Origin: Kitasatospora sp. NBC_00458
GTDB lineage: Bacteria; Actinomycetota; Actinomycetes; Streptomycetales; Streptomycetaceae
Direction: 5' to 3'
Length of the DNA stretch: 64,000 bases
Assembly: GCF_036013975.1 (NCBI RefSeq)
Contig: NZ_CP107904.1
Coordinates: 3,721,001-3,785,000 of the forward strand
Below, in pieces: positions 15,982 to 61,137 of this stretch. A model generated the notes under the pieces. That model did no database searches. It was not told the DNA's origin and saw only the letters and a list, made by a program, of their open reading frames with translations. Numbering within the stretch: the first letter of the stretch is position 1; each line of letters begins with the position of its first letter. The translations under genes and the position numbers were made by a program.

Positions 15982-16017
15982 GGCACCGATCGTTCCACGC
16001 TGGCGTGCCGGGACGCA

Positions 16018-16057
16018 TCAGGGTGGACCCCTGACCCTTCTCAGGGACAAGTCAGGG
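16018..16057. promoter_or_regulatory. four phased TCAGGG half-sites, candidate response-regulator operator
   Basis: TCAGGG occurs at 16018, 16041 and 16052 and its inverse CCCTGA at 16029, so half-sites start every 11-12 bp on one helix face. The first two form a palindrome with a 5-bp spacer. They lie between the divergent kinase-regulator operon and the PspC gene, as expected for a NarL/LuxR-type regulator. Confidence 0.55.
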
Positions 16058-16114
16058 TCCGGACAGGGCTCGCACCGGTTGGGCGGGGCTCCGACACCCA
16101 CCAGGATGGTGGTC

Positions 16115-17650
16115 ATGACCGAAGACCCCCGCACCGAGGAGATCGAGGAGGCCGGGCCGAGCGCCCCGCCCGCCCCGGACCGTCCGCCGCTGAACCGGAC
16201 CGAGCACCACCGCGTGGTGGCCGGCGTCTGCGGCGGCCTGGGTCGGCACCTGGACATCGACCCGGTGGTCTTCCGCGTCGTCACGGTCGTGCTCTGCCTC
16301 TCCGGCGGCCTCGGCCTCTTCCTCTACGGACTCGCCTGGCTGATCATCCCGACCGAGCCGGTCGCGGACGGCAAGGGCGACGGCCGCCCTGGCCGCACCG
16401 AACTCCAGCGGGTGCTCACCGGCCGGGTCGACGGCCAGTCGATCGGCGCGGTGCTGCTGACCGTGATCGGCACCGGCGTCTTCTTCTCCTCGATGGGCGA
16501 CGGCGACCAGCTCTTCCCGCTGCTGCTGCTCGCCGGGCTGGTCTTCCTGGCCGTCCGCTACGACCCGGAGCGCCGGCGCGGCCGGACCCGCGGCCGCCGA
16601 CGGCAGCGCCGCGGCCACGGCGGGCACGGCGACCCCGGAGGCCACGGCGGGCACGGCGACCCCGGAGGCCACGGGCCGCACGGCGGCCCGTACGACCGGT
16701 ACTTCCCCGAGGCCGACCCGGCCGCCGGGCCGGCCTACCGCTGGCCGCGCGAGACCGAGGACGAGGAGGCACGCGAGCGGCACGCCCGGGAACGGGCCGC
16801 CGGAACCGTCCCCGCCGACACCCCGCACACCGGTCCGACCGGCTACCTGTGGGACCCGCGCCACCCCGAGCGCAACCCGTACGGCGGAGCCGCCCCGGCC
16901 CAGCCCTACGCCGGTCCGACCCCGCCGCCCGGGGCACCCGCCCAGCCGTGGTGGCAGCGCGCCGACCTGCCGCAGGGCGACCCGCTGCGCAAGGAGGGCG
17001 GTCCGGCCGCACCTCCCCCGCCGCCCGTGACGGTGCACCGGCGGGAGCGCTCCCCGCTCGGCCTGATCGGCCTGCTGCTGGCGGTGGGCGCGGCCAGCGC
17101 CGTCTGGTCGGCCTCCGCCGGCGGCCGGGCGGCCGTGCTGAACGGCACCGTGCTCGCCACCGCGCTGCTGGTGATCGGGCTGACCCTGCTGGTCGGCGCC
17201 AAGTTCGGCCGGGCCCGCCGGCTGGTGGTGCCGGGCCTGCTGCTCACCGTCGCGCTCACCGCCGTCGGCCACTCGTCGGTCTCGGCGCAGAACCTGCTCG
17301 GCGACCGCAGCTGGGTCGTCACCACGGCGGACCGGCTGGAGCAGAAGTACACCCTCGGGCTCGGCTCGCTGGAGCTGGACCTGAGCGCACTCGACCCGGC
17401 CGGCGGCGTCCTGAGCACCACCGCGGAGCTCGGTGCCGGCGACATGACGGTGACGGTGCCGGCGGACGTGACGGTGAACGTGCGGACCGAGACCGGGCTG
17501 GCCTCGGTCAATCTGCCGGGGCCGATCAGTGACAACGGCCCCGCCACCCGCAGCTACCAGCTGCTGCCGGTGAACGGCCAGGCATCCAAGGGAACGCTCG
17601 ACCTCACGCTGAAGGTCGGGCTCGGCGACATCAGGGTGGTCCAGAAGTGA
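16115..17650 (+). CDS. PspC domain-containing membrane protein
   Basis: A 511-residue protein; the ATG at 16115 is preceded by AGGA, and an alternative ATG lies 9 bases upstream. The PspC domain is at about residues 28-90 (HRVVAGVCGGLGRHLDIDP plus one helix). Two or three further membrane helices, a long charged linker with an HGGHGDPGG repeat, more helices near 310-380 and a beta-rich C-terminus follow. The last ~130 residues (repeated LGSLELDLSAL, AELGAGDMTVTVP patterns) resemble the beta-helical cell-wall-active (LiaF-like) domain. In Firmicutes such proteins restrain a LiaRS-like system; a comparable brake on the divergent kinase is a reasonable inference. Confidence 0.87.
   Translation: MTEDPRTEEIEEAGPSAPPAPDRPPLNRTEHHRVVAGVCGGLGRHLDIDPVVFRVVTVVLCLSGGLGLFLYGLAWLIIPTEPVADGKGDGRPGRTELQRVLTGRVDGQSIGAVLLTVIGTGVFFSSMGDGDQLFPLLLLAGLVFLAVRYDPERRRGRTRGRRRQRRGHGGHGDPGGHGGHGDPGGHGPHGGPYDRYFPEADPAAGPAYRWPRETEDEEARERHARERAAGTVPADTPHTGPTGYLWDPRHPERNPYGGAAPAQPYAGPTPPPGAPAQPWWQRADLPQGDPLRKEGGPAAPPPPPVTVHRRERSPLGLIGLLLAVGAASAVWSASAGGRAAVLNGTVLATALLVIGLTLLVGAKFGRARRLVVPGLLLTVALTAVGHSSVSAQNLLGDRSWVVTTADRLEQKYTLGLGSLELDLSALDPAGGVLSTTAELGAGDMTVTVPADVTVNVRTETGLASVNLPGPISDNGPATRSYQLLPVNGQASKGTLDLTLKVGLGDIRVVQK
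16613..16674 (+). repeat. 27-bp tandem repeat in the PspC gene
   Basis: Two identical 27-bp units (16613-16639, 16640-16666) plus a partial third encode the HGGHGDPGG linker motif. Copy number could vary by slippage without breaking the frame. Confidence 0.85.
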
Positions 17651-17928: not shown

Positions 17929-19074
17929 CTAGCCCTCCAGCGGCCCGAGGTGGAGCTTCTCGCCCTCCTTGGTCACCCGGTACTTCGGCAGCGGCTTGGT
18001 GGCCGGGCCGTTGAGCACCGCGCCGGTCGCCGCGTCGAACCGGGAGCCGTGGCACGGGCAGTACAGCTGCCCGTTCTTCGGGGCGTCGACCGCGCAGCCC
18101 GAGTGCGTGCAGACCGAGGAGAAGGCGCAGTACTGGCCCGCCTTGGGCTGGACCACGTAGAGCGCGTCACCGCTGGCCGGGTCCTTGACCTGGGCCGATC
18201 CGCCGACCGGGACGCTCGCGGCGTCCACCGTGACGGGCGGCGCGGCGGAGGCGGGCGCCGCGGACTGCTTCGGCTTCCCGGCCGCCCCGTCCCGCCCGAA
18301 GGTGGCGGTCAGCGAGCCGGTGAGCAGCCCGGCGCCGCCCATCGCGACCGCCGCGATCCCGCCGTCCATCAGGGCACGCCGCCGGACGTGGTCCTCGTGC
18401 AGGCCGCGGGCCCGGTCGCCGGCGGCCCGCCGGGCGAGGTAGCCGTCCACCGAGAGGTACGGGGTGCCGGCGAGCACCAGCGGGGTCCAGGCCATCAGGT
18501 ACACGAGGTCGTTGCCGAGGTAGTACGGGGAGACGTTCCAGCTGACGGTGAGCCAGAGGGTCAGGCTGAGCACCGCGCCGCCGGCCGCCGCGAGCCGCCC
18601 CCAGAGGCCGAGCAGGGTGCCCAGGCCGACGGCCAGCTCGCCGAAGGCGACCAGCAGGCCGAACAGGGTGGGGTGGTCCAGGGCGGGGCCGAGCAGGAAG
18701 GAGATCGGGCTGGACCCCTTGGCGAGCCTGGTCTGCGAGACGAAGGAGGCCGGGTCGCCCGCGCCGGCCAGGTAGTGGGTGTCGGCGAGCTTGTCGAGCG
18801 CCGCGTAGACGAAGGTGACGCCGAGGAAGAGCCGCAGCGGCAGCAGCGCCAGCCGCGAGCCGGCCGCCTTCCACCCGGCCACCCTGGCGGTTCTGCCGCC
18901 CGGGCGGCTGCCGCCCGTTCCGGCTCCGCCCGCGCCGGCCCCGTCCGCGCCGGTTCCGGTGCCGCTGCCGGTGCCGTCCGGGGTCACCGGCCCCGGGTCG
19001 GCCGGGCCCGAACCGGCCATGGCCGCGCCGGCCGTCGCCCGACCGGCCGCCACGGAGCTGCTGGCCTCCGCCAT
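17929..19074 (-). CDS. DoxX-Rieske fusion protein
   Basis: A 381-residue protein; ATG at 19074 follows GGGAAGG (a GTG three codons earlier is also possible). After a Gly/Thr-rich head, residues about 60-210 hold the four-helix DoxX/DoxD quinone-reductase-like membrane domain ([33 protein letters not shown]). A fifth hydrophobic stretch (about 235-255) leads to a C-terminal Rieske domain with both cluster motifs, CTHSGC and CPCHGS. The protein could pass electrons between quinone and an external acceptor. The electron donor is not apparent. It has its own unit, after the guaA terminator on the same strand. Confidence 0.9.
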
Positions 19075-19187
19075 TCCCCACACCTTCCCTCACCGGCCCG
19101 CCACCGCCTGACAGGTCCGGACGCATTCTGCCCGGTAGTGAGCGCTTTCGGTGGGAGGGCCCACCCGGTGGGCGCCCGGTCCACCGC

Positions 19188-60579: not shown

Positions 60580-61137
60580 ATGGTCGCCATGCCGGCAATC
60601 GAGCGTCCGACGGACCAGGACGGCATCATCCAGGCATTCCTGGAGCTGGACACGCCGCCCGGATTCAAGGCCGAACTCATCGAAGGGGAGATCGTCGTGA
60701 CCCCGCCACCGGACGGATCTCATGAAACCGCGTTCTCGCTCATCAACCGGCAGTTCATGCGCAAGGCCGAGATCGAGTTCGATCTGTCGGGCAACAAGGG
60801 CCTGATCACGCCCAAGGGCCGCTTCATCCCGGACGGGACGGTCAGCAGGGTCGGCCACTTCGAGAACAGTGGCAGCTGGGCCCCCGCAGCGGGAGTCCTG
60901 CTGGTCTTCGAGATCACCTCCACCAACCCCGGCAAGGACCGCGGCCCCAAGCGGAACGGCTACGCCGCGGCCGGTGTCCCCTGCTACCTGCTGGTCGACC
61001 GGGGCGAGGGCAAGGTCACCCTCTTCACCGACCCGGAGGGCGAGGACTACACCGCCCACGTCCAAGTCGACTTCGGCAAGCCGATCGACCTGCCCGCGCC
61101 GTTCTCGTTCACCCTGGACACGGCCCCCCTGAAGTAG
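60580..61137 (+). CDS. Uma2 family (DUF820) nuclease-fold protein
   Basis: A 185-residue protein; ATG follows AGGAGGGAGAAGG. The PD-(D/E)xK-like elements are present: ELIEGEIVVTPPP at the start, an Asp near IPDGTVS, FEITSTNPGKDRGPK with Glu and Lys, then the GYAAAGVPCYLLVDRG ending. Uma2 proteins are numerous and mobile in streptomycetes, and their target is unknown. It lies alone, opposite to its neighbours, between the NAD(P)HX gene and glmS, which suggests it was acquired. Confidence 0.88.
   Translation: MVAMPAIERPTDQDGIIQAFLELDTPPGFKAELIEGEIVVTPPPDGSHETAFSLINRQFMRKAEIEFDLSGNKGLITPKGRFIPDGTVSRVGHFENSGSWAPAAGVLLVFEITSTNPGKDRGPKRNGYAAAGVPCYLLVDRGEGKVTLFTDPEGEDYTAHVQVDFGKPIDLPAPFSFTLDTAPLK

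Follow-up and report, generated by a model that had tools for sequence, protein, structure and literature searches.

The intergenic region between a PspC-type two-component operon and a divergently transcribed PspC membrane protein gene holds four hexamers of the form TCAGGG or CCCTGA, which raises the questions of whether these are operator sites, whether they act as one array or as several, and which protein reads them. The region was analysed within a window of 64 kb, this being the whole stretch of DNA under study, and was compared with orthologous loci of the same genus and of the wider class.

The domain content and layout of the three genes (Table 1) match the literature on Actinobacteria and Corynebacterium glutamicum and they were therefore named by type as esrR, esrS and esrI. 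Together they make up an EsrISR-type system of a PspC-histidine kinase, a LuxR-type regulator and a divergent PspC/LiaF-like membrane protein. The esrS and esrR reading frames overlap at the start of esrR and the two genes lie in the same operon. The solved chains nearest to the EsrR-type regulator are those of NarL, DevR and VraR. The kinase was matched at E < 1e-48 in 30 of the 31 genomes of the relatives sample (own genome included); G030, a genome 77% complete, gave only a weak one (E 8e-8). The LiaF_C_term match in the EsrI-type protein is weak, at 21 bits against a curated cut-off of 57, as is that of residues 410-511 to the solved chain 4qrk (E 0.0015, or E 0.00038 with a three-sequence profile), which is given as an example of the Toastrack fold (PMC11237479). 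The esrI start at 16115 was preferred over that at 16106 because the ATG at 16106 falls outside the reading frame in one same-genus locus (L006). Beyond esrI, at 17929-19083 on the minus strand of the window, the translation when read by eye appears to join a DoxX-like membrane domain to an iron-sulphur domain of Rieske type in one fused protein.

Table 1. Genes, operator modules and putative promoter elements of the esr locus (window coordinates)
Feature	Position	Strand	Remarks
EsrR-type response regulator, 234 aa	13773..14477	-	Pfam Response_reg and GerE (receiver and LuxR/GerE HTH)
EsrS-type histidine kinase, 503 aa	14470..15981	-	Pfam PspC (PF04024) at residues 34-89, and HATPase
Putative -10-like AACGAT of esrSR	15989..15994	-	7 bases before GTG 15981; region partly conserved
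-35-like ATGCGT of esrSR	16013..16018	-	18-bp spacer; shares one base with half-site 1
Module A of the operator, on the esrSR side; inverted repeat of 17 bp, TCAGGG-N5-CCCTGA	16018..16034		same-genus conservation
Module B of the operator, on the esrI side; direct repeat of 11 bp, TCAGGGACAAGTCAGGG	16041..16057	+	same-genus conservation
Degenerate third half-site ACAGGG, exactly +11	16063..16068	+	GGG invariant in 16-locus genus alignment
ACCGGTTGGG, possible degenerate counterpart of class-wide CCC(T)GATGG element	16074..16083	+	
Putative -35-like TTGGGC of esrI	16079..16084	+	
-10-like CAGGAT of esrI	16102..16107	+	17-bp spacer; 7 bases before ATG 16115
EsrI-type membrane protein, 511 aa	16115..17650	+	N-terminal Pfam PspC (PF04024); LiaF/Toastrack-like C-terminus

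Exact matches in the window place TCAGGG at 16018, 16041 and 16052 and CCCTGA at 16029, in agreement with the original prediction, so that the orientations run +, -, +, + with centre-to-centre spacings of 11, 12 and 11 bp. Over the window as a whole the hexamer is somewhat rarer than shuffles predict (25 found against 37.3 expected) and none of 150 simulated 64-kb windows contained four within 40 bp, the highest count reached being three, which rules out chance or a simple repeat as the source of the cluster. The full inverted repeat TCAGGGN5CCCTGA has a single occurrence in the 8.01-Mb own genome, at the esr intergenic site. All four sites had been predicted to face the same side of the helix; at 10.5 bp per turn they lie at 0, 17, 69 and 86 degrees, such that the helical phase is good inside each pair and drifts between the pairs, with an inter-pair gap that is not conserved.

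The same-genus comparison comprised 19 loci (own included) drawn from the relatives sample of 31 genomes. Half-site 1 with its flank, GCATCAGGG, is kept at the kinase promoter in 19/19 loci, and the pair formed by sites 3 and 4 accompanies esrI in 19/19, being in place in 17 and displaced in two, always with a spacing of 11. Half-site 2 is exact in seven of the 19 loci, with CCCTGA at +11 in L005, L006, L009, L010, L017 and L022 and at +12 in L023, and is degenerate in the other 12 where mainly the CCC is retained. Site 3 lies 23-25 bp from site 1 in 16 loci and 62 bp from it in L021; the separation grows to about 0.95 and 1.8 kb in a further two, the split loci. In these two the pair is absent from the short windows (L019 and L020) because a hydrolase-like gene sits between the modules, and in the longer stretches (L181 and L182) CCCTGATGC remains at esrSR and TCAGGGAGAGATCAGGG remains at esrI. 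Judged by eye to be of SGNH type, the intervening gene lies at 4989-5711 in L181 and at 5588-7192 in L182 and makes these loci a natural promoter-splitting experiment. The four sites are, from sequence conservation, two separable predicted operators, one per promoter, and not one array.

A consensus scan found no consensus sigma-70 promoter in the window, and the -35-like elements of esrI and esrSR are both poor. AGGATG at the -10-like element of esrI is invariant in the 16-locus genus alignment. The placing of the putative -10 elements suggests that the esrI and esrSR transcripts may be leaderless, and the overlap between half-site 1 and the -35-like element of esrSR would be as for a class II-type activator site.

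The class search covered 118 genomes, in 81 of which (own included) the kinase was found at E 1e-30 or better; for the other 80 matched genomes 76 loci were fetched, with G063, G106, G039 and G051 outside the set, and 72 were usable once L104, L132, L152 and L162 had been dropped as too short or without a core match. With a loose half-site defined as [TC]C[AC]GGG, same-strand pairs occur at a spacing of 11 in 48 of the 72 class loci and at 12 in 18, against none to six loci at the remaining spacings from 6 to 21; spacings of 22, 23 and 24 are found in 11, 13 and 9 loci and may be second rungs. Strict TCAGGG pairs on the same strand occur in 24 of these loci at spacing 11 and in eight at spacing 12, with a shuffle control at spacing 11 giving a mean of 1.0 and a maximum of 3 for loose pairs and 0 for strict ones. 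Inverted half-site pairs peak at 11 and 22 (14 and 13 of the 72 loci). The distance from half-site to GATG in the class loci peaks at 14-15, at 25-26 and more weakly at 36-37, forming an 11-bp ladder, and further peaks at 42-43 and 53-54 fit the -10 element. The core form, defined as a half-site 14-16 bp before C/T-GATG at the -35 position, is present in 37/72 class loci against 0-2 at 18 control distances, while any operator form is present in 65/72 against a shuffle mean of 2.8 and maximum of 7, although these locus counts, like those of the named and f6 loci below, are not independent events because the loci are related. No operator form was found in the seven other class loci (L087, L097, L134, L135, L139, L143 and L144), of which L134, L135 and L139 carry a TCCGGG variant.

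A named set added 80 Mycobacteriales loci (Nocardia, Rhodococcus, Gordonia, Pseudonocardiaceae and others, with no Corynebacterium among them), and was considered together with the 18 loci of family f6, taken, from the near identity of G137 to a Nocardia record, to be the family of that genus. A divergent esrI was placed by rule in 52 of the 80 named loci and 16 of the 18 f6 loci, with 30 of the 98 having no placed esrI. The core form was found in 44/52 named loci, with none at two control distances, and in 13 of the 16 f6 loci with esrI placed. The direct pair at spacing 11 is rare in named Mycobacteriales (4/52), in which the core form alone is common. In the small-genome genus g79 the core form occurs in three of five measurable loci. 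Conservation in close relatives, one of the two tests that the original prediction had set itself, is seen in the same genus and extends across the class, which supports its reading of the sites as an operator, very probably for the LuxR-type regulator.

A search for the same pattern had also been proposed, and its success in orthologous loci across the class was not repeated within the own genome, where the direct pair TCAGGGN5TCAGGG alone is not enriched, with four places (esr included) against three for the reversed pattern. Besides esr these are L075, upstream of a zinc-ribbon-like gene termed T3, window position 61127, where the pair runs across the stop codon that ends the 60580-61137 reading frame, and L128, where by eye it seems to follow a gene end; the last two seem incidental. 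A larger EsrR regulon in the own genome was rejected on these counts. The own genome has the core form TCAGGGN4-6CCYGATG twice, at the esrSR promoter and at 238011, and the reversed control once; over the 31 genomes there are 66 matches to the core form and 36 to its reversed control, an excess under twofold. Places with one mismatch in the own genome (L036-L044) were viewed as sequence only, and the third PspC gene of the own genome (L045) showed no clear operator by eye.

Across the 19 same-genus genomes taken together the exact direct pair has 123 occurrences and the reversed pattern 25, so that copies do exist beyond esr. One lies beside T2, a small gene adjoining a histidine ammonia-lyase-like gene (by eye), in at least 10 of the 19 same-genus genomes, being degenerate in the own genome (L313), and another lies upstream of T3 in at least 11 of the 19, own included. 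Neither T2 nor T3 has a Pfam family over the cut-off, and the half-site orientation relative to both is the reverse of that at esrI. A role of T2 and T3 as family-wide targets is not supported, several more distant genera of the same family being without the pair among the matches listed. In more distant same-family genomes (L318-L320, L322 and L325) a different recurring block of roughly GGGGGCTAACCCCAGTG stands upstream of the T2 homologue, at the place where the own genus has the TCAGGG pair, and the T2 homologue of L323 is preceded by four consecutive CCCTGA half-sites spaced exactly 11 bp apart, more than in any other ladder noticed.

The sites are best read as the autoregulatory operator of the EsrISR-type system, which would activate both divergent promoters and carry additional half-sites particular to single lineages, and we infer that EsrR is the binder; from the comparison of sequences we give this reading a probability of roughly 0.85. 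EsrR binding is the best supposition because the element accompanies esrSR class-wide and because the LiaR/CesR motif shares its arms. A same-order family (L176-L180 and L183) is informative here. Its kinase homologue aligns only from query residue 215 or later and seemingly has no PspC domain. No EsrI homologue was found in the 6-11 kb read around its esrSR genes, and the kinase promoter retains CCCTGATGC wherever that part was covered. In L176-L179 a different gene (secreted-looking, about 190 aa and convergent with esrR) is preceded by an 11-bp direct repeat, such that with the repeat beside esrR and no EsrI nearby the site seems to follow esrR, not esrI; the repeat is also present in L180, where the filter called no gene, and L183 is without it at the neighbouring gene. 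Across the 19 genus loci EsrR is at least 91% identical to that of the window (median 94); the figures are at least 72% (median 77) for the 26 class loci with a nearly whole EsrR and a median of 63% for 78 named loci, in which HTH positions 209, 211 and 216 differ. The stretch around the recognition helix hardly varies among the genus, order and class loci that covered it, although it is generic for LuxR-type HTHs.

The original prediction had the four sites as one cooperative array of fixed helical phase serving the whole intergenic region, a reading that accords with four exact hexamers at 11, 12 and 11 bp in the window but is now very unlikely, given that site 2 is exact in only 7/19 same-genus loci, that the inter-module distance varies and stands at about 0.95 kb in one genome and 1.8 kb in another, and that the phase drifts to 69-86 degrees between the pairs. 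It is likewise unlikely that the half-sites bind another regulator than EsrR, such as one of OmpR type. Direct repeats of 11 bp are typical of OmpR-family sites, many OmpR-type regulators using them, and direct repeats depart from the textbook arrangement for LuxR-type dimers; the conserved copies away from esr, before T3 and in the T2 intergenic region, and the excess of exact direct pairs over the reversed pattern in the 19 same-genus genomes would also suit such a regulator. Against this, the site accompanies esrSR class-wide and adjoins esrR in L176-L179, for which no nearby esrI was found, the core form occurs in the own genome at only two places of which one is esr (reversed control one), and it is also an inverted repeat with arms like those of LiaR/CesR (PMC4447274).

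The CCC(T)GATG and ACGAT/AGGAT blocks might instead constitute the promoter of an alternative sigma factor with TCAGGG as part of it, in keeping with the recurrence of both blocks class-wide and the lack of a sigma-70 consensus in the window. This we regard as highly improbable since TCAGGG stands in an 11-bp register upstream and in variable copy number, unlike promoters.

For the preferred reading, in which EsrR controls both promoters, the PspC-kinase EsrS would phosphorylate EsrR under envelope stress, and EsrR dimers would go on to occupy half-sites TCAGGG/CCC(T)GA at a spacing of 11 bp, a single turn of the helix. Since the half-sites at each divergent promoter lie just upstream of or overlap a poor -35 element, RNA polymerase is probably recruited by EsrR once bound, with module A predicted to serve esrSR and module B, together with the degenerate half-site at 16063, to serve esrI. 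EsrI is reportedly (Kleine et al. 2017) an inhibitor of EsrSR in C. glutamicum, so that the same signal would drive both positive feedback through esrSR and negative feedback through esrI. We tentatively raise the possibility, held at rather less than even odds, that EsrR polymerises along one face of the DNA on an extendable ladder of 11-bp half-sites, the number of rungs setting promoter strength in each lineage; an equally provisional part of this proposal is that direct copies stand upstream and one inverted copy is fused to the -35 element, a grammar that would be kept across the class.

What had been a guessed operator thus becomes a regulatory code that can be tested class-wide, in a PspC-type envelope-stress system that is widespread among Actinobacteria. 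From this code follow predictions for the bases read by EsrR, for both promoter starts and for two candidate extra targets in the genus, and it points to a way of building reporters of cell-wall antibiotic stress for antibiotic-producing bacteria.

The system had been thought apparently uncharacterised, which is wrong at the family level because the EsrISR architecture is known: the gene set is of the EsrISR type studied in C. glutamicum, and the arrangement of a PspC-kinase and regulator with a divergent PspC gene around a common promoter region is described for Actinobacteria in the section of PMC11237479 on PspA-free Lia-like systems. The present locus has exactly that layout, shared promoter region included, and that section describes no operator. 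In C. glutamicum the PspC-kinase is placed in a three-component stress system (PMC9239133, PMC3353115); esrI is part of the Esr regulon and was induced when a foreign amylase was secreted, the system itself being induced by the lipid II antibiotics bacitracin and vancomycin (PMC6975037). The locus resembles C. glutamicum EsrISR in having a PspC-kinase and LuxR regulator in the same operon and a divergent PspC membrane protein, and differs in its kinase of 503 aa, against 423 aa given for Cg0707 (PMC3353115), and in the extra 11-bp half-sites at esrI. No EsrR operator sequence was found in the literature searched, and Kleine et al. 2017 may contain one. LiaFSR/VraSR systems are defined by a LiaF gene co-directional with liaSR and a kinase without PspC, whereas in the window the gene order is divergent, PspC is on both proteins and the LiaF_C_term score is below its cut-off. 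The likeness to LiaFSR/VraSR/CesR of Firmicutes lies in the related regulator (VraR is among the best chains) and the weakly LiaF-like C-terminus of EsrI, and the difference in PspC on kinase and inhibitor, the divergent order and the direct-repeat arrays. The LiaR/CesR motif, presented in PMC4447274 as TCAGHCTnnAGDCTGA, shares its TCAG/CTGA arms with window 16018-16034 but differs in the inner bases and in length (16 bp against the 17-bp inverted repeat), such that this repeat departs from the full consensus as stated there.
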